Notes under the pieces: model-generated
Told to the model about the DNA's origin: nothing
Database searches by the model: none
Seen by the model: only the letters and a program-made list of their open reading frames with translations
In this document: in pieces, positions 8,312 to 61,903 of the stretch
How the letters are laid out: the number at the start of each line of letters is the position of its first letter
How positions within the stretch are numbered: the stretch's first letter is position 1
Translations under genes and position numbers: made by a program
Assembly (NCBI GenBank): GCA_948567375.1
Contig: OX419757.1
Location: 16,816,974-16,880,973 of the forward strand
Source: Lunularia cruciata
Taxonomy: Eukaryota > Streptophyta > Marchantiopsida > Lunulariales > Lunulariaceae
Direction: 5' to 3'
DNA length: 64,000 nucleotides

Positions 8312-8353
8312 GTTCTTCCTTGTCTTCGCGTAGTAATCGTTTGCGCTCCGGAT

Positions 8354-11441: not shown

Positions 11442-11453
11442 CACAAAGGGTAC

Positions 11454-25008: not shown

Positions 25009-25129
25009 GTCCATCACTCCCAGCATGTGCCTGAATTGTCTTGATAGGCATAGAGTTCACAAGTGTCCTATCAAGTGCATCCTATGCTGCTTTGTTAAGC
25101 CAAGGCTCACAATCCAAGTCAAACGGTTC

Positions 25130-26100: not shown

Positions 26101-26859
26101 TGTCAAGGTAATAGACTTTGGAGGCTCATCCTCACACTGGCCTCTTGGTAGTACAAAGGCTCCACTCCAAGCTTGTTGCACCAACTGATTTGCATGTTGT
26201 TGCAATGCCTCCTTTGAACTCCACAATAGAACATCCATGGTGGATGGTATGATCCCATTTGTACTCCAAATCCAAATGATATCCTCTATTATTGGAGTAT
26301 TCTCTCCATGGAAATTCCCCTCCAATATGTCACTAGGCCTAGTAAGAAAACCATTGAAAGCTAAAATTGATGCTGCTATAGTCCCGGATTGTAGTGAGCC
26401 AAGATTGCCACTACTGAAGCATACTAGTAAGCAACATACTTGTCCTTCACATCACTACCAACTTGGTCTATAGGAGGCTGCCTCCTCCCAATATTCAATA
26501 CTAAAGCCCATGGGGTATAACACTACTCTCCCAACTAACACATCATATGACTCAACTACTATTGCAATAGCCTAAGCTCTCACCATAGAGCTATCAGTTG
26601 GATGACCAGGCTGAATCTAGACAAAAAGCTCTCCACATGTGATATAATATGTAGAACCACCCCCTAGACATGCTTGGATCTGAAATGGACACCTCTACAT
26701 GTCAATCTTCCATAATTCCAGATTGACAACTCAAGCCTTCTCCAACATAAAGGGTTATGCACTAAAGTCTAGTAAGACCCTCCGTGATGTATAGACTTTC
26801 CATGAAGGTCCCACCAAACAAAAAATCCCCCTCTAGTTATCCAATAGGAAAAATCCAAG

Positions 26860-28870
26860 TGTGAATTATGCTTGCTCAAAGGCCGGTCTAGTTGGTAATT
26901 CCTCCAATCTAGTCATTGCTATCTGCCATAAACCACTAGTCGTTGAGCGGATCTCATGCTCCTCAACCAAGTTAGCTCCGCTATCAACCACCTTTGCTCT
27001 AGAAGTTGGAACCACATCATCCCTACTCTCACAAACTATGGCAGCCAACAAGAACACTAGAGCTGGGTCAACTCCCAATGTAGACATGTCATTGGTTGAG
27101 AATAATGGAAAGCGCATAATCAACTGAGCTGCCCCCAATATCGAGCTAGACTCAATAGGTGTAGTAGCAAGTGACTTAATAGTAGGTAGTCTATCATGCA
27201 ACCCATCACCACTATCACACCTAGACTAGGACATCTAAGAGCCATGGATGTTGTCTGTAGTGCCTCAAAGAGTGCAAAAGACTGGGGAAGTCTAACCTAT
27301 CTACCAACCTTTTATCTTTGTGGATCTAACACTATTGATACTTCTTGAGGCTTTGGAGCACATACTGCCCTCCTAGTCACTATGTTTGATGCATCTACCT
27401 ATGTTGCTCTTCACTTGAAGTCCAAGATGTCTCTATCACTAGCATATGAGGTGGAAGCCTCTAGCACTCAGATCTGATCTCCTCTAAACAATGGCCATGC
27501 TAGCCAATCTTTGTTCCAACTGCTCAATCTGAGTAGCCATGGGTGTATTAGAAGTAAGGGTAGGATCCACACCCCTACTAGGTGTGGATCCTCTACCACC
27601 ACCGCTACCACCTCACTCTCCATGACCTCGAGCTCCTCTACTACTTGTCATAGCATCCCTACCACTCTATAACTTAGGGTGTAGGTCAAAGCATTGATCA
27701 CTAGTGTGACCAAATATGTGGCAATGCTTACACTATCTTTGTGCTAGCTATGATGTACCAGAGGTATCAGATCTTCTGCCTTGGGTGCACTCTCTCCTAT
27801 GGTGATGTCCACCATAAGTCCAACAAGCCATACTACCACTCATTGGCTACTATTGACCTAAAATTGAAGGTAAGGGTCTAGCTACACTAGTCCTTCTGCT
27901 CGTTCCATAGAATCTGGGCTGTCTACCATGTCCTTGGAAACCAACATGGCATGGTGCAATGTGCTATATTTTGGAAGAGTAACAACTATAGATGAGGTCT
28001 TCCTATCAAATCTAGACATCACTACTCTCTCCTCCACCATGTTGAGCTCAATATGCTTAGCCAAACCAAAGATCATTGCCAAAGTAAGCAAAGTAGCCTA
28101 TAACAATGTAGCATCATGGACTCTATGTTGCAATTCCTTGTCCAATATCCCAGACCAAAATTGGATTACTTGGGAATAAGTAACTCCTGGAGTAAAATTG
28201 ATCAGCCATCTCATGCAAGTGTATGCCTTGCATAGGCTCATTCTGCTAGAACTCTTGCAAGCTCCTTAGCTTGTCAGCGTGTTAGTCCGCAGTCCTAGTA
28301 TATTTGCCTCAAACACTAGAAAAACTCTACCATGGGATTAAACTCAATACTACACCACTTCTTGTAGTGGTACCTCTACTTGTAGTAGCACCATCTCCAA
28401 GAAATCCACCAACATTACTAGAGCTAGAACTCATGTGTACTATCAATCTACCCCTAGAAACTGAGCCTGAAGTGATGAAGATGTACTTTTGAGACCAATA
28501 TTGTCTCCACAACACAATCTCCTCCAAGTGAGCTCTCCTGAACTCATGGTAGTTGTCCGTTGATGGACTCTCCAAGTGCTAAAACAACCCCTTCTATGCC
28601 ATGAAGGGTGCAAACAAAGTTGTGTTTTCATATTTACTACAGATCACACCAACTATTGAACTCTTGGATGAAGTCATCTAACTCAATGGTACCCACTATA
28701 CCAGAGTAACACCTGGAGCCTTTGGAGGCCCCATAAATCTTGTCCATGTCCCACAAAAATGATGCAGATACACCAAGTGCACTCTCAATTGAATCAACTC
28801 TTGTGTCAAACTCCAACTTAAAGTCAATCTACTCACTCATTGGGACCTAAGATACAAGCTAATACAAAGC
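26860..28870 (-). pseudogene. gag: C3 gag
   Basis: Decayed Gag matching C2: N-terminal part near 28860-28300 (DDYHEFRRAHLEEI equivalents), LAMIFGLAKHIELNMVEE near 28070, the zinc-knuckle area near 27840-27700 and the protease-proximal region near 27200. Many breaks; the only long frames are short. Confidence 0.65.
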
Positions 28871-36330: not shown

Positions 36331-38109
36331 GTGCCTAGTGTAGCTAGACCCTTACCTTCCTTTTTAGGTCAACAACAGCCAAGGAATGGTGGTGTTGCTT
36401 GCTAGACTTGTGGTGGACCTCACCACAAGAGAGATTGCACTAAAGGTAGCAAACATGATATCTCTAATGCATCACAATTAGCACAAAGACAATGTGACCT
36501 TTGCCACAGATTTGACCAGACTAGTGATCAATGCTTTGACCTACACCCAAAATTACAGAGTTGTAGGGCTGCTACGGCAAGTAGTAGAGGAGCTCTAGGT
36601 CATGGAGGACAAGGTGGTAGGGGTGCAATACTTGCTCTTACTTCTAATATAGCTACGGCTACTTGGATTGAGCAATTGGAGCAAAGATTGGCCAACATGG
36701 CCATTGCTTAGAGGACATCAGATTTTTGTGTTGAAGGTTCTACCTCTGGTAGAGATATTGGTGATAGAGACATCTTGGACTTCATATGGGGAGCAACACA
36801 AGTAGATGTCTATGTCGTAGTGACTAGGAGTGCAATATGTGCTCTAGAGCCTAGAGGAGCATCAATGGAGTTGGACTCGCAAAGAAGAGAGGTTGGTAGA
36901 CAAGTCAAACTTCCCCAATCTTTTACACTCTTTGAAGCACTATAGACAACATCCATGGCTCCTAAATGTCCTAGTAAAGGTGTGGTAGATGGTGATGGGG
37001 TGGTAGGTAGTGATGGGATGCAAGATAGACTACTTGCTAGTCAGGCACTTGCTACTATACAAATTGAATCTAGCTTGATGTTGGGGGTGGCTCAATTGAT
37101 TATGCGCTTTCCTTTGTTCTCAACCAATGACATGTTTACTTGGGCAGTTGACCCACCTCTACTATTCCGATTGGCTGCCACACTTTGTGAGAGTAGGGAT
37201 GATGTGGTTCCCATTACTAGAGCAAAGGTGGTTGATAGTGGAGCTTACTTGGTTGAGGAGCATGAGATTTGCTCAGTGACCAATGGGTTATGGTAGGCAA
37301 TAGTAGCTATATTGGAGGAGTTATCAACTAGACTTACTTTTGAGAGAGTGTGGTTCACACCTAGGGTTGTCTTGTTGGATAACCAAGGTTTTTTTGTTTG
37401 GTGAGACCTTCAAGGAAGGTCTATATACCATAGATTGTCTTATTAGACTTTGGTACATAGCCCCTTATGTGGGGAATGTTATAGTTATTGGTCTAAAGCT
37501 TTGGAAGACCAATGTGAAGAGGTGTCCATTTCAGATCCAAATATCTTTATGGAGCGGTTCTACATATTACATCACATAAGGAGAGCTTGTTGTCTAGATT
37601 CAGCTTGGTCATCCTATTGATAGCTCTATGGTAAGAGCTCCGGCTATTTGCAACCATAGTTGAGTCATATGATATGCTTGTTGGTGGAGCAATATTATAT
37701 CCCATGGGTTTCAATATTGAATTTTGGGGAGAGACAACTTCCTATAGACCAGGTTGGTAGTTAGGTGAAGGAAAAATATGTCACCTACCAATACACTTTA
37801 GTAATGGCAGCCTTGGCTCACTATAGTCAAGGACCATGGTATCATCAATTTCAACTTTCATGGTTTTGTTACTGGGCCTAGTGACTTATTGGAGTGGAAC
37901 ACCCATGCATAGGATACTTCAATACCAGAGTAGATCACTTGGATTTAAAGTACAAGTGGGATCATTCCATTCACCTTGGATGTTCCATTGTGGAGTTAAG
38001 AAGAGGCATTGTAGGAGCATGTAGATCAATTGGTGCAATAAGCTTGGAGTGGATCCTTTGTACCATAAGGAGATCAATATGAGTATGAGCCACTGGAGTT
38101 GATTACCTT

Positions 38110-39110
38110 GTCACCTTGAATACCACACTCATTGCTTGGTAGTATCCAATAGATCAAATTTTTTGGTGGGATTAGCATTGGACTAGCTCCGATATTACAA
38201 GTAAGTATCTAAGTATAGGGTAATTGTGTGTATAGAGAGATAAGACTACTTGTCAAGTCTCTCTACATCATGTGGTACATTTGGCCTATCGGTATCTTGA
38301 GTTATTATCTATGTCAACAATCAAGGGTTACCAAAAGCTACTACCAGTAGATATTTCCTTGTTGGGAGGAAAAGATTTAGAGAGATATGGTCCTATTCAT
38401 TTCGTGACTTTTGGATGGTCATGTTAGGGATATACACATACTAGCTAAGGTCAAGGTCTTCAAGATCCCCATTCTAGTGTGTTTTGGGAGATGTTACGTA
38501 TTCTATGACATCTCCAGGTTCATCAATTTGTTTCTCCAACTTACATTTTGGAGAATGTCCCTTTGATGGGTGATTCTCATACATGGGTGGTGGAAATACA
38601 CATCAATCCATCCTTAGATGGAACCTTCCATGTTGTTAGATGCAGCTAGAGTGAGATCATAGGCTCATCATCTACATCTTTGGTGGATGAACCTCTTACC
38701 CAAAGAGGTTTGACAATGTGCTTATGATGGGATTCAACAACTAGACCACCTTATTGTTGATGACATTTTGGATGTTGGTTGTCAGTCTCAGATGGTGGTA
38801 ATGGTTGATAGGTCACCTATGGCAATAGTGAACCTAATTGATAGCCTTGAGTTGCTTTTCCCACACTTATGAGTTTCCTAAGCTCTCATGCTTTTTGAGA
38901 AGAAGACTTGTTTGGGATTCACAATTATAGTAGTTGGTGGAGCCTAATGCTAATGAAAGGAAGCAAGCAATGGGTTTTTCCATTGGTATTACTACTATTA
39001 TAGTAGTGTTAAAGGCATCTAAGCATCAAGCTATGGACCCAAATTGTTTGACCCGGATTATGAGCCTTGGCTTGGCAGAGCAATGTAGGATGTGTTTGAT
39101 AGGAATCACC
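38110..39110 (+). pseudogene. C1 DNMT3-like cytosine-C5 methyltransferase domain
   Basis: Third copy of the methyltransferase. A motif I equivalent (FGGIS) is at about 38163-38177, the motif IV area (F-G-W) at about 38408-38422, ENV of motif VI at 38551-38559, the R-W-W-type motif VIII region near 38655-38690, and the C-terminal VEPNANERKQAMGF segment near 38935. C2 inserted just downstream, before RT. Fossil with many breaks. Confidence 0.7.
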
Positions 39111-39282
39111 ACTTGGACACTTATGACCTCCGTGCCTATTGAGACAATTTAGGCACATGCTAGGGATGATGGACCAAGTGTGCAAGGTATTCTTAGGACA
39201 CAACCAATGGCTACTAGTAAGAGAGGTCTACATGAAGTGAGCATGGTCTACTTGGATTACATCCTTGGTCTACTTGGGATGC

Positions 39283-39944
39283 TGTCGTGCGTATATACAT
39301 CGCTACACAACATACATCGCTGTCAACATCATACACTATAGAAGCACAACTCACACATAAGTCATACATAGACTCTAAAGTGCCACAATAATCAGATTGC
39401 TTAACATTCTCCACTCAACTCAACTCAGATCAGTACTTGATCTGTCACTCTATAAACTGCCAACAACTGGGCACAGATTACAGTCAAGCCACACCCACTC
39501 AAGCATAGAGAATTCAGATGACGCTCGCCGGCCTCTGTCCACCATAGCCAGGAACTCGAAGGCACAACATCAGAGAAGTGAGCTCTCTGGAGCTCACTTC
39601 AAAACTATACCCCCTGGACTCGAGCTAGCATTGAAACCCTAACGGTCCCGCTGACGGCACACTCGACGGTGCAAATGGTGCAAAGTGACGGTGGGCCCCA
39701 CCGTGAAGTCAGTACCCCGAACACCAAATCTGACTGTCAGAAAGTAGTCCTTGAGAAACTGCTAGAATAACTCTAACTACTATCACTGGAACTCCAATGT
39801 CCAAGCAGCTAGATGCGGAACTACAAATGGCATGACAACTGTCGTGCGTATATACATCACTACACAACATACATCACTGTCAACATCATACACTATAGAA
39901 GCACAACTCACACATAAGTCATACATAGACTCTAAAGTGCCACA
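39283..39944 (-). repeat. C2 3' terminal B-A-B block
   Basis: On the plus strand: outer B 39283-39387, A 39388-39837, spacer AC, inner B 39840-39944. The two B copies (105 bp) differ at about two positions. At the inner B/A joint GCATGACA-AC-TGTCGTGC is an 18-bp near-palindrome that looks like a joint of two element ends. Next to the inner B is a C-run (39945-39958; G-run on the coding strand), the likely polypurine tract. Confidence 0.85.
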
Positions 39945-40110
39945 ATCGCCCCCCTAGCTGGCGGTTAGGTCCCTCTAACTCCAGATAGCCATCTACTCTA
40001 AGTATATGGTATACCCTCTAATGGGCAAAGATCAGGAGGCCGGGTGCTATGGAGCCCCATCGTTAGTTGCCTGTCTGCAATCTATACCATATAAAGAATG
40101 AACTAGCTAT

Positions 40111-40655
40111 AGGTCAAGTACATCTAGGACATAACCACTGTCCTTAAGGAACCACCATGAGGGGAGGAGTCATACATGCCATATGCCATCCTCTCGAACA
40201 ACTATCACACACTAACATAGTAGCAGCTCCACCAGAAGAGCCACATAACATACACCTCAAGCCTGCACGTACAAGTGCCAAGCTTGGGTCCATAGTACCA
40301 TCAATGTTTGGGAGGTGGCATGGCGCACAATTGCACACATGATCCTTCCAAACAACACCATCACGTCCTTCTAACACAAGGACTCCAGATGGCAAAACCT
40401 CACGCACTCTCAAGATAGTGCGGCCTGTAGAAACATCAAGTGTCATCGGTGCTGTCTGCTGTAGTATACATAGTCGCCTGGATGAAATCGACGGATCGAG
40501 GGTCTATAACCTCCTCCTTGAATGGTAGCATAGCGTAAAGTATCTCTATGCTGAGCAATCGCCAAGTTCTCAAAGGCCATTGGCATCACTCTCCAAAAGA
40601 TCTCTGCCCGCTGAGAACATGCGCTCATCCATACATCGGGGTCATCCAAGTCCAA
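40111..40655 (-). pseudogene. C2 integrase C-terminal module with PHD finger
   Basis: 40655-40443 carries the linker helix (MAFENLAIAQHRDTLRYA) and a RFHPGDYVYYSRQHR strand. 40446-40144 continues with ILRVREVLPSGVLVLEG (SH3-like strand) and then a PHD finger at 40117-40254: C-x2-C (CMLC), C-x2-C (CDSC), H-x2-C (HMAC), TPPL and a final W-x-C-x2-C. PHD fingers bind histone H3 tails. Here it takes the place where chromoviruses have a chromodomain, so a targeting role is likely. Broken, about one or two breaks. Confidence 0.8.
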
Positions 40656-40700
40656 AACTACAGTAGCATCTCGACGAATGGCTGCAGGTAAATCTGGATC

Positions 40701-41877
40701 TCATCCATAGAGTAGAAAGTATGGAGAGAAGGATGCTAAGGAGGCTTGCCGGCTGAACCGATAGCCCATGGCCAACCAAGGTAACTGGAGATCCCAATCT
40801 CCCAAGTGGCCTCTCTGCAAACCATACTTTCGCAATCCTTTCTTCACCGTCTGAACCACTCTCTCTGCTAAGCCATCTGCCTCAGGGTGATCTCGGGATG
40901 TAGTATGATGATCAATCAAAGCCTTGTCACACAAGACCTGAAACTCCCCCAAGAACTCTGTACCTTGATCAGTCAAAACCTCAGCTGGTGCACCAAAATG
41001 ACTAAGAACTTGATCCAGGAATGAGTAAGATGTCCCTTCACTAGACTTGTCAGGAAGTGCCACCAACTCAATCCACTTGGAGAAGTGCTCCACCATCACC
41101 AAAACATACCGATGATGTCTCACAGTCAGCGGTAAAGGTCCGGTGAAGTCTAAACTCCAATGGTAACCCAATCCCATGATAGGTAATGGGTGTAATTGTG
41201 GCATAGGAGCATTGAATGATGCTCTAACTCGGTTACAAACCACACATCTGGCAACAAACTGCTATACCTTGGTCTGCATACCACGCCACCAATAATGACT
41301 CTAGAGTAAAAATATATGTACGCTTTACTCCAAAATGTCCCAGCTCCTCATGAGCATGACGGACCAATTGTGGTCTCTGTGATGGAAGTGGTACTACTCG
41401 CACTCTACCATCCTCCCATACACACAAAAGGTGTCTACCGTCCAATCTGAACCATCTAGCTCGCTGAAGAACACGGTCTCTCTCCTTGGCCCCAACCGTG
41501 CCACCCACAACACCAGTGCAAAGATAGTCCATCACTAAGACATCATCATGAATGTCTCGCTGAACTGTACTAATATCTTCACTCTCTAGATCTATGACCT
41601 CAATAACTCCTCTTGTATGCGCTGAGAGAGATACCACCAAAGTCTCTGCAAATATACACAGAAAGGCCGATGCATGCCAACCTGGCACCATCTCCTCATC
41701 TGTCTCACCATGCCAACGTGCTCCGGTCTGATCCTGCTGGCTGGGACATGGGTTTCTACTCAACCCATCTGCATCACGGTTCACCACTCCAGGTCTGTGA
41801 ACAACCGTGAAATCATACTCCTGTAAAATCAGAGCCCATTGTGTAAGCTTCCCTGAAAGCTTGTCAGACTCCATCAA
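40701..41877 (-). pseudogene. C2 RNase H end and integrase
   Basis: 41877-41233: RNase H end (VHRPGVVNRDADGLSRNP), a linker, then the integrase zinc region (LVRHAHEELGHFGVKRT with H-x-n-H; CQMC). 41243-40701: catalytic core with Asp in YHWSLDFTGPL, Asp in VLTDQGTEFLG and Glu in EADGLAERVVQT. This is a DDE integrase, which fits the observed target duplication. It continues into the C-terminal module at 40655-40443. Confidence 0.85.
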
Positions 41878-41934
41878 CCACTTCAGCGGCTGATGATCAG
41901 TGATGAGAGTGAAGGGGTTACCAAATAGGTAACA

Positions 41935-43215
41935 TCAGAAATGTGCTACTGCCCAAACTGCTGCCAAGCACTCTCCCTCATATGAACTATACTTCACCTC
42001 CGCTGAATTGTTGGAGCGATTAGCATAGGCCACCACAAACTCCTTCTCCTCATCATGATGCTGGGTGAGCACCGCTCCAAGCCCCAACATACTCCAATCA
42101 ATGTGAACCTGAAATTGTTGTCCCTTGATTGGTCTCCTCAAAATAGGAGCAGATGTCAACCTCTCCTTGAGCTCTACAAAAGCTCTCTCCTGCTCATCTC
42201 CCCAACACCACTCCTGTGTAAGATTGGTCAGCTTTGTCAAGGCCTTGGCAATGGCACTAAATCCTCTAACATAGCGGCGATAGAAGTTTGCCAACCAAGG
42301 AATGCTTGCACTCTGCTCACATCCGTAGGCCGAGGAATACGTGCAATAGCCTCCACCTTGGTCTGCTGAACACCAAGTCCTCCGGGGTAGATAGTGTGAC
42401 CCAAATACTCAACCTGCTTGTGGAAGAACTTACACTTCCCAAGATGTAGTTTGAGTCCATGAGATCTCAACCTCTCAAACACCTCCAACAACTGTCTCTC
42501 ATGCTCCTCCACAATAGTGCTATAAACCAAAATGTCATCAATATAGCACCGAGCAAAATCCAATCCAGCTAGGATCCTATCCATAACCCCTCTGGAACTC
42601 AACAGGAGCGTTCTTCAACCCAAATGGTAAGAACCTCCACTGATATAACACATCCTTGCCGTGAGGATCAATAGCCCAAAATGCTGTCTTGGACTTATCC
42701 TCCTCCCTGATCGGCAACTGATGATATCCCGCTCAAAGATCCAAAGTACTGAAGACCTTTGCATGCCCAATTGCATCAAAAATCTCCTCCGGTGTAGGCA
42801 TGGCATACCGATCAGCCCTGGTCTGTCGGTTGATAGGACGGTAATCTCCACACATCCGCCTATCTGTATAGTTGCCATGCATATCCTTCTTGGCTGGCAT
42901 CACTGTTGCTGATGCATACTCTCCATGTGAAATCTCCACCAAACCAGCCTCAAAAAGGTCACTACTCCGGCTCTGAATCAATGTCCTCTGCATATCACTA
43001 TATCAATAAGGATGTCGGAAAACTGGTGTGTCGCTAGTCAGCTCAATCCGTATTCCATGTCCTTTCAGAGCACCCAAATCCTTCATACTGAAGGCAAAAC
43101 AACTCGTGTGACTCCTCAAGAACCTCCAAACCCTCCGTCTTTCCTCTCTAGTAAGCTTGGGTCCAAGATCTGGCTCCCAAGTATCCTCTGTAACTGTAGT
43201 AGGAGTGGAAGACAT
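41935..43215 (-). pseudogene. pol: C2 reverse transcriptase and RNase H start
   Basis: N-terminal segment TRLEERRRVWRFL-like at 43215-43003, RT fingers (LVEISHGEYASATVMPAKKD, MCGDYRPINRQTRADRYAMP), active-site box RCYIDDILVYST near 42550, thumb/connection (KLHLGKCKFFHKQVEYLGHT, VQAFLGW), then RNase H (FQVHIDWSMLGLGAVLTQHH with the catalytic Asp; YSSYEGECLAAVWAV with Glu). The Y-I-D-D box fits Ty3/gypsy. Several breaks. Confidence 0.85.
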
Positions 43216-43559
43216 ACTGATTGGCTGCTACACTAGGCCCTTGGGAGCAATAGTGTCATGCTCCCGACCACTAGAGGTCCCAACCTCTGTGTGAAAAACT
43301 CCCTCCACTATGGCTGCAAGCTCCACACGTCCTCTGGCTGCATCCCATGTGGACCAAGGGTGTAATCCAGGTAGCCCACGCTCACCTGGATGGACTCCAA
43401 GTAGACCACTCTCCCTAGTAGCTACTGGATGTGTCCCAAGAATACCATGTCCACTCAGTCCATCGCCCCCAGCATGTGCCTAAATTGTCTTGATAGGCAC
43501 AGGGCTCACAAGTGTCCAAGTGGTGATGCCTATCAAGCGCATCCTATGCTGCTCTGCCA

Positions 43560-44552
43560 AACCAAGGCTCACAATCCAAGTCAAATAGTTCAGGTCCATA
43601 GCTTGACCTAACACCTAACGCCTGGATGCCTCTGACACTACTGGAACAGTGGTAATACCGGTGCAAAAACCCATCGCCCGCTCTCTCTCATCAGCATTGG
43701 GCTCCACCAATTGCTGTAACTGTGAGTCCCAAACAAGCCCAAGGCCTCCCTCTCAAAAAGCATGAGAGCCTGGGAAACTCATGAGTGTGGGAAATGCAGC
43801 TCTAGGCTGTCCAACTAGGTTCACCACTGCCATAGGTGACCTATCAGCCACTACCACTGTCTGAGACTGACGCCCAACATCCAAGATATCATCAACAAGA
43901 ATGTGGTCTAGTCGCTGAATCCCATCATAACTACGTTGTAGAACCTCTTTGGGTAAGAGGTTCGTCCACCAAAGACGAAGACGATGAGCCCGTGATCCCA
44001 CTCTGGCTGCATCTAACAATACAGCAGGTCCCATCCAAGAATGGACCTGATGTGCACTCTAGTGCGAGAATAACCCAACAAAGGAACGTTCTCCAAAAGG
44101 TAAGCTGGAGAAACAGACTGATGAACCTGGAGATGTCGTAATATCCGTAACATCTCCCAAAACACACCAGAACGAGGATCCTGAAGACCCAAACCGCGGC
44201 CCGCACGTGTATGTCCCTAACATGGCCATCCAAAAATCACCAAGTGAATAGGCCCATGTCTCTCTAGGTCATGCGCCCCCAGTAAGGAAATGTCTCTTGG
44301 TAAGGCCTTCTGGGTACCTCTGACTGCTGACATCGGTAATAACTCCGGATACCGATAGGCCAAGTGTGCCACATGATGTAGAGAGACTCGCCTAGCAGTC
44401 TCATCTCTCTCTACATACAAGTACCTCTGTACTCGAATACCCGCCTGTAACACCGCAGCTAGTTCGGTGCTGATCCCACCAAACAACTCCAATAGGCATA
44501 TCCCCTCTATTGGATACTGCCAAGCAATGAGTGTGGTATCCATAGGTGTCAA
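43560..44552 (-). pseudogene. C2 DNMT3-like cytosine-C5 DNA methyltransferase domain
   Basis: A captured methyltransferase of about 330 codons. Motif I LLELFGGIS (about 44465-44495) is the SAM-binding loop. GIRVQRYLYVERDETARRVS follows the DNMT3 pattern after motif I. GPIHLVIFGWPC (about 44217-44252) is motif IV with the catalytic-type Pro-Cys. GVFWEMLRILRHLQ and LLENVPLLG (ENV at 44085-44093) form the helix and motif VI. SRAHRLRLWWTNLLP (about 43950-43995) mirrors the DNMT3 motif VIII AHRARYFWGN. DERERAMGF-type sequence (about 43660-43700) resembles the C-terminal motif IX/X area. Known enzymes of this family transfer a methyl group to cytosine C5. It sits between protease and RT. Broken; a few breaks. 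No target-recognition data can be read from it. Confidence 0.85.
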
Positions 44553-44618
44553 AGCAATCGCCTCTAGAGGCTCATCCTCACACTCATCCCCTGATGGTAC
44601 GAAGGCTCCACTCCAAGC

Positions 44619-45194
44619 CTACTGCACCAACTGATCTGCATGCTGCTGCAATGCCTCCTCTGAACTCCACAATGGAACATCCAAGGTGGATGGAACAATC
44701 CCACTCGTACTCCAAAGCCAAGTGATCTCCTCTAGTACTGGAGTATCCTCTGCATGGGCGTTCCCTTCCAACAAGTCACCAGGCCAAGTAATTGCACCGT
44801 TGAAAGCTAAAACTGATGCTGCCATGGTCCCGGATTGTAGTGAGCCAAGACTGCCACTACTGAAACGTACTGGTAGGCAACATACTCGTCCCTCACCAGA
44901 CTGCCAACCAGGTCTATAAGAGGCTGTCTCCTCCCAATAGTCAATGCTGAAACCCATGGGGTATAACACTGCTCCTCCAACTAGCACATCATATGACTCA
45001 GCTATCGTTGCAATAGCCTGAGCTCTCACTACCGAGCTATCAGTCGGATGACCAGGCTGAACGTGGACAACAAGCTCCCCACGTGTGATGTACTGTGTCA
45101 AACCACCACCTAGAGATGTCTGGATCTGAAATGGACACCTCTCCACATCGGTCTTCCGTAACTCCAGACCAACAACTGCAGCCTCTCCCAACAT
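44619..45194 (-). pseudogene. C2 protease body and linker to methyltransferase
   Basis: A 191-codon frame. SYDVLVGGAVLYPMGFSIDY near residue 70 matches the late strand of gypsy retropepsins (Y-D-V-L-x-G). The C-terminal half (ITWLWSTSGIVPSTLDV, SSEEALQQHADQLVQ) has no known domain and leads to the methyltransferase. Confidence 0.65.
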
Positions 45195-45200
45195 AAGGGG

Positions 45201-46097
45201 CTACGCACCAGAGTCTAACAAGACTCTCTGTGGTGTATAGACCTTCCTTGAAGGTCCCACCAAACAAAAAATCCCCCTCTGGTTATCCAATAGGACAACA
45301 CCAGGTGTAAACCGCGCTCTCTCAAAGGCCGGTCTAGCTGGCAACTCCTCCAGTCTAGCTGCTGCTGCCTGCCATAAACCATTGGTCGCTGAACGGATCC
45401 CATGCTCCTCAACCAAGTCAGCTCTACTACCAACCACCTCTACTCTAGTAGTAGGAACTGCACCATCCCTACTCTCACACAACGTGGCAGCCAACCGGAA
45501 CACTGGGGTTGGGTCAACTCCCAATGTAAACATGTCACTGACTGAAAACAAAGGATGCCGCATAATCAGCTGAGCCGCCCCCAACATCATGCTAGACTCA
45601 GTCTGTGTAGTAGCAGGTGGCTGACTAGCAGGTACTCCATGAGGTACTCCATCACCACCTACCACACCTGCACTGGGACGTCTAGGAACCATGGATGTCG
45701 TCTGTAATGTCTCAGATAGCGTGAAAGATTGGGGAAGTCTGACCTGTCTCCCAACCTCTCCTCTTTGTGGGTCCAACTCCACTGATGCTCCTCTAGGCTC
45801 TAGAGCACGTACTGCACTCCTAGTCACTGCTGCAGATGCATCCACCTGTGCTGCTCCGCACATGAAGTCCAAAGCATCTCTATCACCAACATATGAGGTG
45901 GAAGCCTCAACACCCAAATCTGATCTCCTATGAGCAATAGCCATACTAGCCAATCTCTGCTCCAACTGCTCAATCCGAGTAGCCATAGCTATGTCAGAAG
46001 TAAGGGTAGGTACTGCACCCCTACTAGGTGTAGATCCTCTACCACCACCTCTACCACCTTGTCCTCCATGAATTGGAGCTCCTCTACTACTTGCCAT
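45201..46097 (-). pseudogene. C2 Gag-Pol linker with RGG tract and protease start
   Basis: A 298-codon frame. Residues about 9-20 form a Gly/Arg tract (GGQGGRGGGRG), typical of RNA-binding RGG boxes. A short coiled segment (TRIEQLEQRLASMA) follows, then a long linker, and the frame ends with the retropepsin active-site strand RVLLDSGA. The protease continues in the next frame. Confidence 0.7.
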
Positions 46098-47302
46098 AGC
46101 AGCCCTACCACTCCGTAACTCCGGTGTAGGTCAAAACACCGGTCACTAGTGTGACCAAATCTGTGGCAGTGCTCACACTGCCTCTGTGCTGGCTGTGATG
46201 CACCAGAGGTATCAGGTCCGCTGCCCTGAGTACACTCTCTCCTAAGGTGAGGTCCACCACAAGTCCAACAAGCAACACCACCACTCACTGGCTGCTGCTG
46301 ACCCAAAAATGAGGGTAAGAGTCTAACTCCACTAGGCCCTCCACTTGCTCCATAGGATCTGGGCTGTCCACCCTGTCCTCAAAAACCAACTGGGCGTGGT
46401 GCACTCTGCTGCACTCTAGAAGAAGTCACAGTTGTGGATGGGGTCTCTCTACCAAATCCAGATGTCACCATTCTCTCCTCCACCATATTGAGCTCAATAC
46501 GCTCAGCCAAACCAAAGACTACTGCCAAAGTGGGCGAAGTAGCCTGCAACAACGTAGCATCACAAACTCTACGTTGCAACTCCCTGTCCAGTATCCCATA
46601 CCAAAACTGGACTGCCTGGGCCTCAGTAACTCCCTGAGTGAAACTGATCAGCCGCCTCATGCAAATGTATGCCTCGCGTAGGCTCTCTCTAGCCTTCCGC
46701 TGGAACTCCTGCAAGCTCCTCAGCTTGTCAGTCCGCACTCCTTGGTAGTTCTGCCTCAAACACAAGAAGAACTCCACCATGGGGTTAAACCCCGGTACCA
46801 CACCACCTCTTGCAGCGGTACCTCCACTCGTAGTAGCACTATCTCCAGCTAGTGCACCTCCACTATCTCCACCAACACTACTCAAGCTAGAACTTGTGGG
46901 TACAGCTGATCTACTCCTGGCCACCGAGCCTGAAGTAATGGAGACATAGTGTGGAGACCAATACTGTCTCCATAACTCAATCTCCTCCAAATGAGCTCTC
47001 CTGAACTCATGGTAGTCATCCATCATCAAACCCTCTAGATGTTGAAACAACCCCTTCCATGCCATGAAAGGTGTGAACAAAGTCGGGTTCCACATCTGCT
47101 GCAGATCACACCAACTGTCAAACTCCTGGATGAAGTCATCCAACTTAATGGTACCCACTGGACCAGAGTAATGCCTAGGGCCTTTGGAGGCCCCATAAAT
47201 CTTGTCCATGTCCCACAACAATAGTGCGGACACACCAAGTGCACTCTCAACTGAATCAGCTCCTGTGTCAAACTCCAACTCAGAGTCAATCTCCTCCATC
47301 AC
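45989..47302 (-). pseudogene. gag: C2 gag with two zinc knuckles
   Basis: A 307-codon frame (47302-46379) starts MMEEIDSELEFDTGADSVES and contains the Gag core (DDYHEFRRAHLEEIELWRQY, LREAYICMRRLISF, ERIELNMVEERMV). The next frame (46306-45989) carries two knuckles: CWTCGGPHLRREC (C-x2-C-x3-H-x4-C) and CEHCHRFGHTSDRC (C-x2-C-x4-H-x4-C). The product packages element RNA. Broken; one or two breaks. Confidence 0.8.
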
Positions 47303-48657
47303 TGGGACCTAAGATATAGGCTGATACCGAGCACCACTCCGAGTAAACCCACTACGTACTGCAGGGCTAACTCCTCTGGAATCTCCAAAGAACTCTGTTG
47401 TGACAAAGTAACCACACCAACAAACCCAAACCACCAACTGCAACAGCAAGTCGCAACCGCAAGTGCCCCACCAACTAAACACCACCCACTAATGTAACTC
47501 TAACCGAGATAACTACACTAGGGGAAGGGCAACTTGTAACCTGCCATCATAACACGCACTCTCACGGTCTACAGGTCATCACTTCTTACCTCACCGGAGA
47601 GAGACAAAGGTAGTCTGGCTAGTCATCACTCCAGCCTCACCACCGAGAGCATACCAGAGCACCAACGCTCAAAAGTCAAGGCACCTCACACAAACGTGGT
47701 GCACAAATAGGAAGTAGAGAATAGAGGGGATCCAATCACAAAAAATCTAAACAAAAACCCTCCATCTCATAACACAACACGGGACTGACTCTTCCACCAT
47801 TTGGCATTTGACATAAGAGCAGTTCGGATCTAAGTCCTAAGCTACCAGGATCACCAAGAATGGGATCAAACTGCCTCTCCTAGCCAAAGCTACATGTGTA
47901 TAGATAACAGTGGCACAGTCACTATAACAACAAGTGAGGGTGGACCAGTTGGCTAGGGCACCAGTCTAGGAACAAGAGATCTAGGGGTCAAACCCTGTTG
48001 CGCACAATCTAGCAGGAAAGGCAGATTTTGCCAACCAATTACCAAGATCTACTCTAAACTAGCTAGCCTCACGCCAGCAAGTTGGCTTTCTGGCCCTTTT
48101 AGGCCTTCGTAGCCTCTCATAGCCCACAGCCCTATGCCTTGAAGCCTCTAAACACCAAATGAGGCCTTTCTTGTTGCCACTTCGAACCTCCTCCAAAATT
48201 AGCAAAACTCCTCCAGATCTACGAAACTCCTCCAGATCTGGCCATAAAATCTGACGTAAACCCTAACGATGGATGTCCGCCAAATCCCCCGCTAACTTTC
48301 CACTCGAGCCAAATTGACAAAACGGGTTTTTCCAAATCACAATTTCATGAGAAGAGCTTCCCAACTCCACCTTCAATTTGACTTTTTGAGCCCAACTCGC
48401 AGCAAATTTGTCGTGCCTTCACCTCTTGAGCTCAAAATCACAACACTGCTCAAAAATTGCTCCTTCTTTGCTCAAAATTTGGCCAGCACTTCCGCACACC
48501 GTCCACCTAATTGCCAAATCTGCATCAACTGAACGAGCTTCTGCACACTAGGGAAACACAGAACTTGAATCGAGCTACCACGATCCACCAAGCTTGGAGA
48601 TACCACCAACACTCAATGTTCTTGCACCCAATTTCCCCCTAACTTCACTTCTCTGAT
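47303..48657 (-). other. C2 untranslated leader
   Basis: About 1.35 kb between block A and the gag start. No sizeable minus-strand frame. C1 has an equivalent leader at 34396-35403, with matching start and end segments. Nothing else is recognised in it. Confidence 0.6.
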
Positions 48658-49108
48658 GTAATCTGATTGCTTAACATTCTCCACTCAACTCAACTCAGAT
48701 CAGTACTTGATCTGTCACTCTATAAACTACCAACAACTGGGCACTGATTACAGTCAAGCCACACCCACTCAAGCATAGAGAATCCAGGTGACACTCGCCG
48801 GCCTCTATCCACCATAGCCAGGAACTCGAAGGCTCAACATCAGAGAAGTGAGCTCTCTGGAGCTCACTTCGAAACTATACCTCCCTGGACTCGAGCTAGC
48901 ACTGAAACCCTAACGGTCCCACTGACGGCACACTTGACGGTGCGAATGGTGCAAAGTGATGGTGGGCCCCACCGTGAAGTCAGTACCCCGAACACCAAAT
49001 CTGATTGTCGGAAAGTAGTCCCTGAGAAACTACTAGAATAACTCTAACTGCTATCACTGGAACTCCAATGTCCAAGCAGCTAGATGCGGAACTACAAATG
49101 GCGTGACA
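48658..49108 (-). repeat. C2 5' terminal block A
   Basis: About 451 bp, TGTCACGCC to CAGATTACA on the minus strand, matching 39388-39837. It is followed directly by leader sequence (TCAGAGAAGTG), with no B block. A primer site is not certain; TCAGAG shares six bases with the tRNA-iMet complement. Confidence 0.85.
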
Positions 49109-49238
49109 GGATGCAGCTAGAGGACATATGGAGCTTGCAACCAGATTGGAAGGAGTTTTCCACACTAAGGTTGGGATCTCTAGTGGTTGGAGGCATGATA
49201 CTACCACTCCTAAGGTCCTAATGTAGCAGCCAATCAAT

Positions 49239-53961: not shown

Positions 53962-56727
53962 ATGATGGAGGTACTCAAAAGAGGAGGACGCCAGAAGCAG
54001 GCCAAAGATCATCGTCTTCGGGTTAGAAAATGCAAGAATGATGAAGACCGTTTAACAACCTCGGTACGTGGCAAGAAAGTACATTTCAAGAAACGGCGGG
54101 GGCAGAAGAAGCATGTCTTGACAGTGACCGAGAGAGCACGCAGAAGAGAGAAACTCATAGACAAAATTGATTGAAGAATGACTGTGATTCGGGGCAATAT
54201 AAAATTGCGAATGCGTAGAGGGAAGTTGAATTCGCTGAGTAAATTTCCAATTCCTCTGAGTAGTCATCCTGCAGGAATGCGTGTCCAGAAGCCCGTCGAG
54301 AGTGAAATTTTCCAAAACCCTGAGGGAGTTAGAGTGTCTCGTCCAAGAGAGGGGCTGATCTTCCAACAGCGTAGAACGAGAGAACAAATCATGGCAAAGA
54401 AGGTGGCCAACGCGCTGGCAGTGAGAGGTTTTGCAATTTGAAGGGTAGACGTAGTAGCGAGGATTGAAGTCTTGGTTAGACTTCGTATCACCTTTTTAGC
54501 TTGGAACTGGAATTTCAGTTTCCCGGGAGTGATGGCAGAAATCGCTGCCAGTAATTGTGAGGAGGGTCCCGAAGTGGAGGGGAAGAGAGGCAATCCGGCT
54601 CGATGGACAGAGTTGGATTGGAAGTTAGTCCTGGGGAGAGAAGCAGGAGAGCCAACATGAATCACCTTCTATCGGAAGTGTGATGCTGCAGAGGAGACAA
54701 CGGAGATTCATAACTCATTTTTTGCTCCACGAACTACGAATGGTTACAAGGTGGAGTCCTATCCGGACCCAATCCAAAGAAGTATTGTAGGGGCGATGAT
54801 GGCCATGTTCAAGCCGGAGCGAACAACGTATGTAACCATGCAGCAGGCGGTCTTCTTCCACCAGATGTTTGTAGGAGTACCCGTGAATTGGGCAAAGTGT
54901 TTCCATCACCAAACAAGGCAGATGGTAGTGAATTGGCAAATGGGCTCGCCACCGCATTAATTTGTGCCATTTGCAGCACATTTCTACTTTGGCCTAAACT
55001 TGCTCTCTGAAGACAAGCGGCATCGTATGGTCTCCCACATGCACCCTGATTTGAGACAAGAAGCCGACAAGGAGGAGCGATAGTATATGCTTCAGCTGCG
55101 GGTGAATGACGAATACTTTGCAAGAACGAGACAGTGGAAGATCAAAGATGCGGCCAGTCCGAAGACGAAGAAGCAAAGTAAACCCGAAGAAGCAAAACCA
55201 TTGGCCATCCAACTCAAGACTTGGAGGCTGATGTTGAAGACCGCAAATGTCGTGAGAAGAGCATCATCGGGATCAGAGTCTGATGAAGAAACGGAGTCGC
55301 AAGAAGAAGACTCAAAAGAAGAAGAGCTCACATTGAAGAGTGGGGAGTCAGGTAGTGAAAGTGAGGGAGAGCCCGAAGTCCAGCAATTGGTGGTGGTGAG
55401 TGAAGCGGGCAAGGCGATGGTGGAGAACAAGCCAAAACCCGAAGCAAAGAAGGAATATCCCGTGGAGCCGAGTTCAAGAGGCCAAGACGAAGATAACGCT
55501 GACACTCTAAAGATACGAAGATCACGACTTCGGATGAAGGAGCCGATGACACAGGAAAAGACTCCAGACAAAGAAGGCAATGATGAAGAAGAAACTTTTG
55601 GCAGGATATTATATTTAACGAAGGTGGTCACACCATTGCTGGAGATTTTGAAGGAATATCAGAGAGGAATTCCCCAAGATCAAGTAAAAGGGATGAATGA
55701 GCTGCAGGTGGTGAAGCATCTGTTGAAGGAAGTGAAGGAGCTGCAAGAGCATCAAATCCGAAGAAGTGCGAAAATTGAAGATCTTTGGAGGGAGGAAGAT
55801 TTGAGGAAGAAAATGTTGAGTGTGTTACAAGAGAGTTGTGCAAAAAAGGAGAAGGACCTGCAAAAGCAAGCCAGAGAGTTGAAGGAGCAGGCGATGTGGC
55901 TCAGCAAGATGTAGGAGGAAGTAAGTAATGTGCGCGTCGAGAAAGTCCATTTTAAGGCGATGAACATCGTAAGGGAGCAAGAATTGGACAGCTTGAAGAA
56001 GAGTGCCGCAACAAAAGATCAAGCATGGCAGAGAGAATTGGCGTCAAGGCAAGAAGAAGAAGAGCGTTTGCGAGAACTTGTCAAGAGTGTGGAGCAGCAA
56101 AAAGTGCAGTATGTAGAGGAGAAGAAGATGCTTGCTGCAAAATACGAAGACGAGTTGCAAATGTATCAGGTGGAGTTGAAGGTGGAGCGTTCTCGAGGAT
56201 ATGCATCGGAATCAGTAGGGGACCTTGCTGGGAGATTACGAGCAATTCTAAGTACGGAGGCTGAAGGAAGATTGGAAGAAGCTCGTCTGCATGAGTTGAA
56301 GTTACTTGTGCAAGAGACTCGGAAGCGAAGAGCTAAGGATGTGGACATGAACACATTGCTGATTCAGTTGAGAGAGCGAGTAGACAAGAAAATGTTAGAT
56401 GTAGAGAATAATGTTAGTCTTAGATTGGATTTAGTCAATTCGGAATTGGAGAAAATTTGGAATAGTGTGACAGTGGAGAAGAAACCCGATGTCGCAGAAG
56501 TAGGAAGTCAGGTGTCATCGGACTTGAGAATTGACACTTTAGAGAAGAGTGGGTCGGGAAATAAGAGTGTAGATGGATTACCCATGAGCTCGATTGTAGT
56601 TCCTAGTGTAGAAGTTGTAGAATTAGTGAAAAAATTAGTAGAATCAGTCATACCCGAAGAAGATGAAGTAGTAAGAAGATCATCGGGTTTGGAAGCTGAT
56701 GATGAGGTAGACATCGGATCAGGATAA
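53962..56727 (+). pseudogene. B4 U3-encoded ORF remnants
   Basis: Blocks in the same order as B2. 53962-54441 is very basic (Arg/Lys-rich, KKVHFKKRRGQKKH). 54472-54660 has LAWNWNFSFPGVMAEIAASN and RWTELDWKLVLGREAG. 54751-54960 has KPERTTYVTMQQAVFFHQMF. 55087-55914 is charged, with acidic runs and coiled-coil sequence. 55930-56727 is a 265-codon coiled coil ending in EADDEVDIGSG. The coding span is about 2.8 kb and ends just before the 0.8-kb promoter-bearing tail. Function unknown. The N-terminal part resembles the plant transposon protein domain discussed under B2. Confidence 0.65.
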
Positions 56728-57614: not shown

Positions 57615-58515
57615 ATGTCTGCATTGAGAGAACAACAAGACAAGAGGGCTCGAAGACAAGTGGTGCAGCGTGAAGAAGATGAACGTTTGAAAGCCCCATA
57701 CACTTCAGACGAAAGTGAACAAGAAGAATTGGACTTTCAACTTCTCCATGAAGTACAAGCAGCCCTGCGCAAACTTGATCAAAAGAGATGCAAAAGAGGT
57801 TGGCAAGGCTACTTTTCATCCCCGTTTGCCAAGACCAAGAAAGACTCAAGCGGGCAGACATACGCGCTACGACCCAGTACACCAACTTCCCCTAAAGCTG
57901 TAAAGGAAGTTGATTTCATTAAGAAGTTTGTTCGAGAAAAGACAGCACAAACACTTACGGAGGAAGAGTGTCAACATCTGGTACAAAAAATTCCTCGGTT
58001 ATCCCGAAGAAGATTTGAAGATCAGATGAAAGCTGTGAACCCTCTTACTTCTGATCGGGTTGAAGTCGACACCACCAAAGAAGAAGAAATTGTTGAAAAC
58101 AACCCCAATTTGAACTCGACAAATTGGAACCCGTGGGCAGACAACACGGCGTCCATACCAAGTAGCTTTGCGGTTCCCGTAAGTTCAACTTTACCACACC
58201 CAAATCTGCCGCACCAAACAATGTCTTCGTTACCCGTGACCCGACATGCTTATCAAAAGTACAAAGGTACAGAGCAAGATGAAGATCCTGACAAATTCAT
58301 TGAGGAATTCGAAGTCATTTCCTTTGCCAACAAGGAACATGACTCTACGGATCGACTGCGGATTTTTCCAAGCCTGCTCTGAAAGAAGGCTCAAAGTTGG
58401 TATACTCATATAACGCAGAAGGGACTTACCCCAGCGGACTAGGCAGACTTATGGAATGGCTTCTTGGAACAATTTCAGGAAGTGGATTATGATACGAGTG
58501 TCTTTGCGGCACTCA
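57615..58515 (+). pseudogene. gag: B4 gag
   Basis: A 255-codon frame to 58382 starts MSALREQQDKRARRQ. The N-terminal half is charged (QREEDERLKAP, EVQAALRKLDQKR). The retrotransposon Gag core begins near residue 215 (YKGTEQDEDPDKFIEEFEVI) and continues to about 58515 (QSWYTHITQ, FLEQFQEVDYD). Broken; few breaks. Confidence 0.75.
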
Positions 58516-60054: not shown

Positions 60055-61903
60055 AGCATCTTAATTTGGAGCTTTTGGCACAAGAGAAGAAGAAAGCTCG
60101 TTTTGGAGAGGATGCGCACTCTTCTCAAGGATTTACTCCTAGCCAAGATACTCCTATGTCTATTAGGAGCACTTGCACAAGCACTTCAACACCATCAACA
60201 ACAAAGACTCCAAGTTGGAAGAAGTTGGGGATGGAGCACTTCTTGATATCAAAGCAACAATGGAATTACAATGTCTTGGAAGATGTAGGTAGTCACAAAG
60301 CTAAAATCACAATGGGCCAATTGATTGCTTTGAACCCTACCTTGAGAAAGGATCTTAGAGGTGGTTTGAGTTCTACAAGGAACAAGAGGAAGAAGAAAGA
60401 AAAAGCTCCAGTATCAATGGGGATGGTGGATGCCAAGCTAGCACCATGGGAGGCTTGTGAATATGCCTCCAAGATTGATGTGAGAGTGAATGGTCTTAAC
60501 ATCAAGGATGCATTTGTTGATGGAGGATCAGCAGTGACTACCATGCTAGAAAGGTTGATGAGGAAGTTGGGTATGATAATCTAAAGACCTTCAGTTGTGG
60601 TGAGCATGGCAAACAAACAACAAGTTTGACCAATAGCGGTGATGGATAAAGTGGCAATTTAAGTTATGGGAGTTCAAAATCTCATGACTTTCCAAGTCTT
60701 GAAGGATTCAAGCTATGACTTACTTCTTGGGAGGCTATGGTTAAGAGCAACGTGTACAACTGAATGATGGCACAAAGGGTACGTGAGGATTGGGTCATCA
60801 AATCATAGAGTCATAATTCATGTGACTAACACCACCAACACTTCACATTCAAATACACCATCTTTTGATCATTGGGAATCAGATTCTAAAGAAGGAGCGT
60901 CAAGTGTGGACAAAAGCATAGAAGAGGAGACTTCCATAGAGGAGGATGAATCTGGATTTGATTAAGATGTGTATCCCTTGTGTGCTATGGATTTTGCACC
61001 TAAGCTTAAGGTTTTGAAGGACCCAAATAAATCACCATTGACACTTGAAGAGATAGAGAGGAGGTTATCTACCCTCAAGTATGGGCCAAATGTTACCAAG
61101 GAGGAGAAGTTGAGATTTGAGGAGATTTTCCGCAAGTTCATCCATATGTTTGCTTTTAGTTACAAGGATTTGAAAGAAGTCGCCTTGGAGGAGCACAAGA
61201 TAGAGATGGAATCACATGCAAGACCAATCTACCAAAAGCAACATTGCATTAGCCCATTAATATCTTTGGTTGTGAAGGAGGAGATTGATAAGCTCAAGAA
61301 GGCCAGATTTATCTTTGAGGTGGAGAATTCAGAATGGTTGTCTCCAATTGTCATTATGACAAAAAAGAATGGCAACCTTTGGATATATATGGATTACAAG
61401 AAGCTCAATGCTATTACTAAGAAAGACTATTACTCTTTGACATTCATTGATGAGATCGTGGAGGAGGTTGTAGGTCATGAGAAGTACAGTTTTAGAGATG
61501 GTTATAGTGGATATAACCAAATCAAGATTGCACCAGAGCATCAAAAACTCACCACATTCACAACACCTTGGGGAACTTATTCTTTCAAGGTCATGCCTTT
61601 TGTACTTTGCAATGCTCCATCCACATTCCAATGGTTCATGAACAAGGTATTTGAACCTTTAATTGGGAAATTTGTGAGAGACTTCATTGATGACTTTTGT
61701 GTCTTTGGGAGCAAGGAGGAGCACATTGAGCACCTAACCAAGGTCTTGCAATGCTTAGATGAGGCAAATGCATCACTCAACCCAGAGAAGTGCATTTTTG
61801 GATGTGAAGAAGGTCTACTTTTGGGGCACATCATCTCCAAGGATGGAATAGCAGTTGACCTTGAGAAGGTGAGGAAAATCTCAAACCTTCCATATATTCC
61901 ATA
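60055..61903 (+). mobile_element. A4: internal fragment of family A (protease to RT)
   Basis: Begins in the Gag-Pol linker (LELLAQEKK) and runs through protease (VNGLNIKDAFVDGGSAVTTM at about 60490) into RT (60969-61907: KYGPNVTKEEK, SPIVIMTKKNGNL, FIDDFCVFG). It ends in the connection region, where it joins an LTR. No LTR of its own is present. The order equals A1. Broken; about four breaks. Confidence 0.8.
60969..61903 (+). pseudogene. pol: A4 reverse transcriptase
   Basis: An open frame of about 310 codons containing RT fingers and palm with FIDDFCVFG and LLLGHIISKDGIAVD, closely similar to A1 RT. RNase H and integrase are missing. Confidence 0.8.

Follow-up and report, generated by a model that had tools for sequence, protein, structure and literature searches.

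The 64,000-nucleotide stretch of Lunularia cruciata DNA analysed here (the window) contains three copies, termed C1, C2, and C3, of a retrotransposon family of the Ty3/gypsy type. The fullest explanation of our observations, which we consider probable, is that the working members of this family encode a catalytically conserved DNA methyltransferase (MTase) of the DNMT3 type. Elements of this kind have been known since 2018; the window family adds to them a branch that is new, larger, and informative as to structure.

Gene order and size of the family

The family has the gene order Gag-PR-MTase-UAG-RT-RNaseH-IN-PHD, distributed over two open reading frames. The upstream frame, 1428 aa long in loci L012 and L013, comprises a Gag region (PF03732 at E 0.07, below the cut-off and in L012 only, of two frames scanned), two zinc knuckles and a DSGAQ protease motif, both recognized by eye, and, after them, the C5-methyltransferase domain PF00145. 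The downstream frame, 1037 aa long in L015, L018, and L019, matches RVT_1, RT_RNaseH, Integrase_H2C2, rve, and PHD in that order in Pfam. The order PR-RT-RNaseH-IN with an rve integrase is that of Ty3/gypsy elements (Metaviridae), here with the MTase inserted between PR and RT; this assignment is domain-based, and the Pfam matches to RT, RNase H, H2C2, and rve agree with the Ty3/gypsy classification proposed in an earlier note on this DNA. Among the Pfam matches of the L015 and L018 downstream frames, no chromovirus chromodomain was found after the integrase, where a PHD finger stands instead; one relative, P0236, also carries PF00385. We regard this anatomy, as read from the sequence, as nearly certain.

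A 36-base stretch covering motif IV of the MTase occurs at 3669 places genome-wide with at most three mismatches (0 for a reversed-pattern control), and a 36-base integrase stretch occurs at 3850 places at the same tolerance, which suggests that nearly all copies of the family have the MTase; these counts leave out more diverged copies. Were all places full length (9.8 kb), the family would amount to ~36 Mb, or ~6% of the 566-Mb genome, and many are shorter. A PF00145 profile scan of the genome scored 123 places from 2161 candidates, among which L001-L004 are host genes by translation and three more had other profile ranges. Twelve ten-kb loci were taken from this list partly for their long open frames and hence lean to young copies, and 20 further fragments are the next places in the list, minus some partial or odd matches. 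The host retains at least two intron-bearing DNMT3-like genes, named by eye, at L001 (G000:C7:31988337-31991654) and L004 (G000:C1:51667193-51670357), along with a DRM-like gene at L002 whose permuted motif order was likewise read by eye; DRM is described as limited to streptophytes in PMC12344493.

Copies in the window

C2 is a complete element (39283-49108, minus strand) with the layout A-coding-B-A-B, where A and B denote terminal repeats; it starts with TGTC, finishes with GACA, and is nested in C1 in the opposite orientation. It is flanked by a 6-bp target-site duplication, GGATGC (39277-39282 on the left and 49109-49114 on the right), a hexamer that C2 itself contains once at the corresponding position. 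Read along the minus strand, C2 begins with repeat A1 (48659-49108; 95.3% identity with A2), within which the predicted RNA 5′ end and self-primer TCACTTCTCTGATG (48838-48851) is the exact 14-nt complement of the primer-binding site CATCAGAGAAGTGA (48645-48658) adjoining A1. There follow a decayed Gag, zinc-knuckle, and protease region (44568-46618; 92-93% aa identity to L015 ORF1 by tblastn, with anatomy after L012 and L015), the decayed DNMT3-like MTase (43534-44564), an in-frame TAG in the context TAG CAG CCA between the MTase and RT frames (43228-43230), and a decayed RT-RNase H-H2C2-integrase-PHD region (40117-43227; 75-95% aa identity to L015 ORF2 by tblastn, with Pfam domains taken from L015 and L018). 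The PHD finger at the end of this region (40120-40254) was positioned by tblastn and matches PF00628 at 2.2e-10 in L015. The 3′ part consists of the polypurine tract (PPT) GCTAGGGGGGCGA (39946-39958) adjoining repeat B1 (39840-39945), repeat A2 (39389-39837), which lies 2 bases past B1, and repeat B2 at the 3′ end (39283-39388).

C1 is an older copy on the plus strand, split by C2 (33960-53120; A1/A2 identity 77.7%; target-site duplication TCCT), with its decayed MTase at 38107-39098 and TAG CAG CCA, between the MTase and RT frames, at 49224-49226. C3, on the minus strand, is an interrupted copy spanning the Gag to RNase H part (22885-28172), with a decayed MTase at 25072-26118, and a fragment of the Gag part of the family was found by tblastn at 3223-4498 (minus strand). 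All three copies are pseudogenes. Relative to the L015 MTase, tblastn gave aa identities of 92% for C2 (44564-43534), 59-73% for C3, and 55-65% for C1; the C2 domain contains a stop and a frameshift ahead of motif VIII, stops also interrupt the C3 domain, which no longer has the Cys of motif IV, and C1 has several stops.

The motifs that the earlier note had described in C2 are present at the coordinates it gave and lie on the minus strand, with motif I (LLELFGG) starting at 44495, motif IV (GPIHLVIFG) at 44255, motif VI (ENVP) starting at 44093, and AHRLR of motif VIII starting at 43989 but in another frame. In C1, C2, and C3 alike, the domain found with the L015 MTase query has the Gag-protease region on one side and the RT region on the other, and this identical slot, shared with the copies read elsewhere in the genome, upholds the claim that the MTase is a family trait and no chance insertion. 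The expectation that PF00145 would recognize the window copies held only in part: of the seven stop-free pieces scanned, all from C2 and C3, one matches, with a score under the cut-off (E 0.0022; 17.9 bits, cut-off 22), and outside the window, other copies in the same genome exceed the cut-off. Because the window copies are decayed, the profile test on them is weak.

Several other sequences accompany these copies. Three 700-base repeats in or beside C3 (22196-22892, 24317-25016, and 29650-30342), with identities of 90.9% (direct) and 77-78% (inverted), are perhaps an insertion splitting C3. Another, distantly related Ty3/gypsy element at 10629-14108 (plus strand; protease PF13975 7.9e-8, RT PF00078 1.1e-24) shows 30-41% aa identity to the downstream frame (ORF2) of the MTase family, and a further RT frame lies at 60966-61907 (plus strand; PF00078 2.7e-22). 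Open frames of 150-371 aa are present at 6623-9674 and 632-2107 (minus strand) and at 55084-56727 and 57615-58382 (plus strand); Pfam gave no match in the six open frames scanned (6623-7738, 8354-9262, 632-1414, 55084-55914, 55915-56727, and 57615-58382).

Identity and conservation of the methyltransferase

A PDB sequence search with the MTase (METHYLTRANSFERASE) returned DNMT3A at the top of 53 matches (E up to 1) with E 3.4e-11, DNMT3B second, and DRM2 at 5.2e-3. The MTase of relative P0001 was modelled with AlphaFold from a 25-row alignment (pLDDT 88.6), and the best 50 of 188 Foldseek matches of this model (E ≤0.001) are all DNMT3A, 3B, or 3C chains, the top match reaching E 2.0e-18 and a TM score of 0.82 by target length. 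Both searches back the DNMT3-like identity put forward in the earlier note, and by sequence and modelled fold the enzyme is closest to DNMT3, whose de novo CG methylation activity it may share. PF00145 is matched in L006 and L008 at E 1.5e-8 and 6.5e-9 (34.9 and 36.1 bits against the curated cut-off of 22), and at E 1.9e-7 and 2e-7 in two family open frames (1428 and 1292 aa); an NCBIfam scan matched TIGR00675 only, below its cut-off. The C-terminal motif is unlike that of DNMT3 in detail, reading GQAMDL versus GRSWSV in DNMT3A. An origin from DRM was rejected: the motif order is canonical, with motif I ahead of IV, VI, and VIII, the circularly permuted order is absent, and DRM2 is weak in the PDB search.

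The 265 relatives include 156 with a full-length MTase, and in these the catalytic columns are nearly invariant (Cys115 98.1%, Glu158 100%, Asn159 98.1%), as are two arginines of motif VIII (Arg198 98.1%, Arg200 99.4%); the Pro of motif IV and the Val of motif VI fall outside the columns kept at ≥90% in the same set. When the 33 aligned copies of this genome are compared outside CpG, variants confined to a single copy number N 107 : S 43 and variants shared by at least two copies N 46 : S 46 (p 0.001), a modest shift that is not significant for transitions alone (p 0.17). This shift fits purifying selection in transposing lineages followed by free decay. The tail from the MTase to the stop shows no clear constraint, with small counts.

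A conserved UAG between the two frames

The two frames are in phase, with one TAG between them. The stop codon is TAG in all 33 aligned copies (32 loci plus C2), and the six bases after it are CAGCCA in 31, CAGCTA in one, and CAGCAA in one, so that 32 of 33 fit CARYYA. When the stop was left open in a genome search, 715 exact places were found, and 100 of them that were listed comprise 97 TAG, 2 TAA, and 1 TTG. UAG CARYYA is the readthrough signal of tobamoviruses, and readthrough of the UAG is here predicted with high confidence. Only a minority of translations would pass the stop; MTase output would thus resemble that of Gag, and RT-IN output would be lower.

Terminal repeats, probable self-priming, and a possible route of integration

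The layout A(450)-coding-B(106)-2 bases-A-B is found in nine of the 12 ten-kb loci as well as in C2 and C1, whereas L013 has the start of A1 only and L011 and L019 lack A1. Across nine genome copies, identity between A1 and A2 ranges from 99.3% (L015) down to 88.2% (L018). With A only at the 5′ end and B-A-B at the 3′ end, two full-length direct LTRs are not encountered. Target-site duplications in 11 scoreable copies are of 4 bp in nine and 6 bp in C2 and are missing in L018 (L017 was unscored).

The sequence right after A1 is complementary to A258-271 over 14 nt, and this self-complement is present in all 10 copies with the site (nine exact over 14 nt, one with one mismatch), the match being imperfect in the older C1. 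A TATA-like GTATAGT lies 28 nt upstream of the predicted RNA 5′ end in the four copies read (L015, L010, L020, and L017). The predicted RNA 5′ end complements the site next to the 5′ repeat, the hallmark of Tf1-type self-priming. A canonical tRNA-primed element with a tRNA-iMet-like primer-binding site was rejected, as the site lacks TGG and has the 14-nt self-complement instead. Self-priming, with the RNA 5′ end deduced from these features, is very probable.

From the self-primer and the PPT before B1 it follows that the cDNA should have LTRs of the form B-GC-A with the outer ends TTGTGG and GATTA, and that joining of the LTR ends and subsequent opening of one B-GC-A would produce the integrated form A-coding-B-GC-A-B. 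The A|B joint would then be remade in every cycle and should vary in length, whereas the copied B-GC-A should not. The predicted joint GATTA|TTGTGG is the commonest, accounting for 88 of 100 joints listed (1579 places), and length variants make up 12 of these 100 A|B joints (+G 3, +A 3, +T 2, -1 1, -3 3) versus 0 of 100 listed at B|A (858 places; Fisher p 0.0003). In the 100 B-GC-A sequences listed of 858, base changes are common and length changes are absent. The descent of the variants was checked with 14 of them (12 fetched plus L010 and L019) and eight plain copies, one row (L061) being poorly aligned: the nearest neighbour shares the variant type for one of the 14, with one more near tie, and the A|B variants do not look like inherited groups. 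The contrast between a variable A|B and an invariant B|A suggests that the two ends of the cDNA become linked ahead of the integrase step, as they would be in a two-LTR circle, and we consider an end-joined circle or concatemer the probable intermediate.

The sequence GACAGCTGTC (GACA-GC-TGTC) at the B|A junction is a perfect palindrome. Retroviral integrases leave two-base overhangs, and nicks 3′ of each CA in the palindrome would do the same. In the cycle that we propose, the RNA would begin at position 258 of A, fold back to the site next to A1, and prime itself; together with the PPT before B1, this would yield a linear cDNA with B-GC-A LTRs, whose ends would be joined into a two-LTR circle with an A|B joint. 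The integrase would nick the GACA-GC-TGTC palindrome in one LTR with loss of GC, and the opened circle would be inserted with a 4-bp duplication to give A-coding-B-GC-A-B. The 6-bp duplication of C2 counts against this 4-bp model. The pattern of the ends suggests insertion from a DNA circle, a route not known among the relatives of the family; two-LTR circles of retroviruses are generally held to be dead ends. The complete proposal, namely a green-plant lineage with a DDE integrase that integrates from two-LTR circles via a palindrome within the LTR and not via the linear cDNA ends, and that co-packages a DNMT3-type enzyme which would methylate the circle and thereby premark every new copy, is tentative, with the balance of probability somewhat against it. 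If true, the circle cycle would also account for the DIRS-like repeats reported for KnitGypsy-Dnmt3.

Alternatively, the A|B joint may arise by an RT template switch from the U5 end to the U3 start, or the elements may derive from head-to-tail cDNA dimers, with the integrase still acting at the B|A palindrome. One-base additions, which are typical of RT template switches, occur in eight of the 100 A|B joints listed, and head-to-tail dimers would yield the identical A-coding-B-A-B product. However, the -3 variants (three of these 100 joints) suit microhomology end joining, and a template switch must explain the missing B before A1 in all 12 copies readable there (10 loci, C1, and C2), and we judge this explanation unlikely. 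A tyrosine-recombinase element, to which the A-coding-B-A-B layout would point as the PAT/DIRS type named in PMC5890265, is so improbable that we rule out a DIRS/PAT assignment, given the rve integrase with H2C2, the target-site duplications in 10 of 11 copies, and the absence of a recombinase domain from the Pfam matches of four frames scanned.

Methylation signature and candidate roles of the enzyme

Differences of the C-to-T type among the 33 copies reach 7.4% in CG, 5.6% in CHG, and 1.0% in CHH contexts (A-to-G 0.4%), a pattern that points to methylation of the copies in CG and CHG over evolutionary time. The host enzymes MET1 and CMT serve the CG and CHG contexts too, and the signature therefore gives the element's own MTase no credit. 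The MTase, packed with the cDNA, would methylate the new copy before or during integration; such self-methylation of the cDNA is a candidate role to which we give somewhat less than an even chance.

The enzyme may instead act on the host or on RNA, for example by upsetting host silencing, and not on its own DNA. Its position upstream of a leaky-type stop, from which it would be produced in excess, speaks for this possibility, and RNA is discussed as a possible substrate of LINE-borne enzymes in PMC5890265; against it, sequence and fold are of the DNMT3 and not the DNMT2 type, and its locations, next to PR/RT in one class of elements and next to RNase H/IN in the second, suit a function within the particle, which makes this possibility improbable. 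Somewhat less probable still is that the MTase slows the element, early self-silencing limiting host damage and aiding persistence. This idea is also raised in PMC5890265 and accords with a mutation signature of methylated copies, but host enzymes would give an equal signature and the family grew to thousands of places. Chance insertion of a host MTase gene into one copy, for which we counted nothing in favour, is ruled out by the shared slot in the window copies and in open-frame copies elsewhere, by its recurrence in other species, by the single clade formed by the 45 retrotransposon-borne MTases (retro-MTases) tested, and by a host DNMT3 that differs and has introns.

A PHD finger after the integrase

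The polyprotein ends, after the integrase, in a PHD finger, whose closest solved structures include CHD4 PHD2, KDM5A/5B PHD1, PHF21A, and AIRE PHD1. Several of these bind unmodified H3K4. By analogy, the PHD finger could tether the integrase to chromatin with unmethylated H3K4, the job that chromodomains have in chromoviruses, a role to which we give even chances. Local phmmer searches found PHD in 90 of 96 relatives with at least 260 residues after the integrase.

Relatives and architectures

Protein searches yielded 179 matches for the MTase domain (120 listed), 47 for longer proteins, and 113 for the second architecture, comprising 265 distinct identifiers. The species named include the liverworts and mosses Marchantia polymorpha, M. 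paleacea, Riccia sorocarpa, Calypogeia fissa, and Sphagnum (three species), as well as Closterium sp., Monoraphidium neglectum, Cymbomonas tetramitiformis, and one bacterial MAG, most other rows being without a species name. The nearest named elements to the window family are from liverworts and Sphagnum. No protein under a Klebsormidium name appeared among the rows listed, which for the MTase-domain search are 120 of 179 and mostly bear no species name, and two scans of viral contigs gave no relatives of the family. One full RT-RH-MTase-IN-PHD polyprotein, P0231, is filed under a bacterial MAG (Minisyncoccia) and is probably algal DNA in a bacterial bin.

By phmmer domain order, the 265 relatives comprise 98 with RT or RH before the MTase, 15 with MTase-IN only, 29 with PR-MTase, seven with PR-MTase-RT, five with MTase-RT, and 111 with the MTase alone. 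Two main architectures can be recognized: PR-MTase-RT, in bryophytes and Closterium, and RT-RH-MTase-IN, in Monoraphidium, Cymbomonas, and many unnamed sources. A third order, MTase-RT-RH-IN, is seen in P0167 and P0262, which have 29-31% identity to the queries and pair in the tree (96/97).

In a tree of 45 retro-MTases hand-picked from the 265 and five cellular rows, the retro-MTases form one clade (98/99), and the cellular branch closest to them is DNMT3 (91/73). The window family falls together with Marchantia, Sphagnum, and one Calypogeia row (100/99). No supported clade unites all PR-MTase rows (52/89), a second Calypogeia row, P0118, falling outside the main group; owing to long branches, the deep order of the tree is unsure. 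The Sphagnum MTases group with those of Marchantia inside the liverworts (96/79; P0142 and P0013 versus P0121 and P0123), a possible sign of horizontal movement from moss to liverwort or the reverse.

Implications

The genome of L. cruciata measures 565.6 Mbp (PMC12885004), and its extra size has been ascribed to Ty3/Gypsy bursts (PMC9985172). Given these bursts and the thousands of places occupied by the family, genome growth in this liverwort may have a DNMT-bearing element as one of its drivers. Carriage of a silencing enzyme of the host's kind is a rare trait in transposons; among Gypsy elements it now extends beyond one charophyte to bryophytes and Closterium as well as to two further green algae. 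With the end structure, the ability of a DDE integrase to use circles can be tested concretely and cheaply, and why a parasite brings along the very mark that silences it becomes a testable question in culturable liverworts.

Comparison with known systems

The soybean LTR element SIRE1 is read through at UAG CARYYA, the context also found here, but it is a Copia element in which readthrough leads to an env-like frame and not to RT. Tf1 has ordinary LTRs and chromodomains, as do the plant Tcn1 chromoviruses, unlike the MTase family. The Tf1/sushi group and the plant Tcn1 chromoviruses are also self-primed Ty3/gypsy elements (PMC6317226); the main text of that survey contains neither "methyltransferase" nor "PHD". 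Some clades of Tat/Ogre elements carry an extra domain, an archaeal RNase H and not an MTase, between PROT and RT, and others carry it between RH and INT (PMC6317226); these are the two slots that the MTase occupies here. An orchid Ty3/gypsy element with an m6A demethylase domain has likewise captured a nucleic-acid-modifying enzyme, albeit another enzyme in another host (PMC9289625).

The earlier note had mentioned MTase-bearing retrotransposons from dinoflagellates and charophyte algae, and PMC5890265 indeed describes Dnmt3 in Gypsy elements of Klebsormidium, a charophyte, and in Symbiodinium DIRS elements, a precedent repeated in PMC12344493. SymbioDIRS-Dnmt3 and SymbioLINE-Dnmt likewise carry cytosine MTases and differ in using a tyrosine recombinase or LINE machinery, the captures being independent according to PMC5890265; the SymbioDIRS-Dnmt3 enzymes of Symbiodinium perform de novo CG methylation in yeast (PMC5890265). 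A 2019 account gives such elements as absent from land plants, "such as tracheophytes" (PMC6338049), and in the open-access literature searched, with subscription papers mostly outside, we found neither a bryophyte case nor a PHD finger in MTase-bearing elements; "PHD" does not occur in the main text of PMC5890265. The closest counterpart is KnitGypsy-Dnmt3 of Klebsormidium nitens, described in 2018, which has a Dnmt3-type MTase with its catalytic residues kept within a Gypsy Pol and showed no activity in yeast, a result called inconclusive in the paper (PMC5890265). Its host is a charophyte alga and not a liverwort, and the comparison is made by description; the Gypsy domains, the DIRS-like repeat layout, and the Dnmt3 reported for it (PMC5890265) are all present in the window family.
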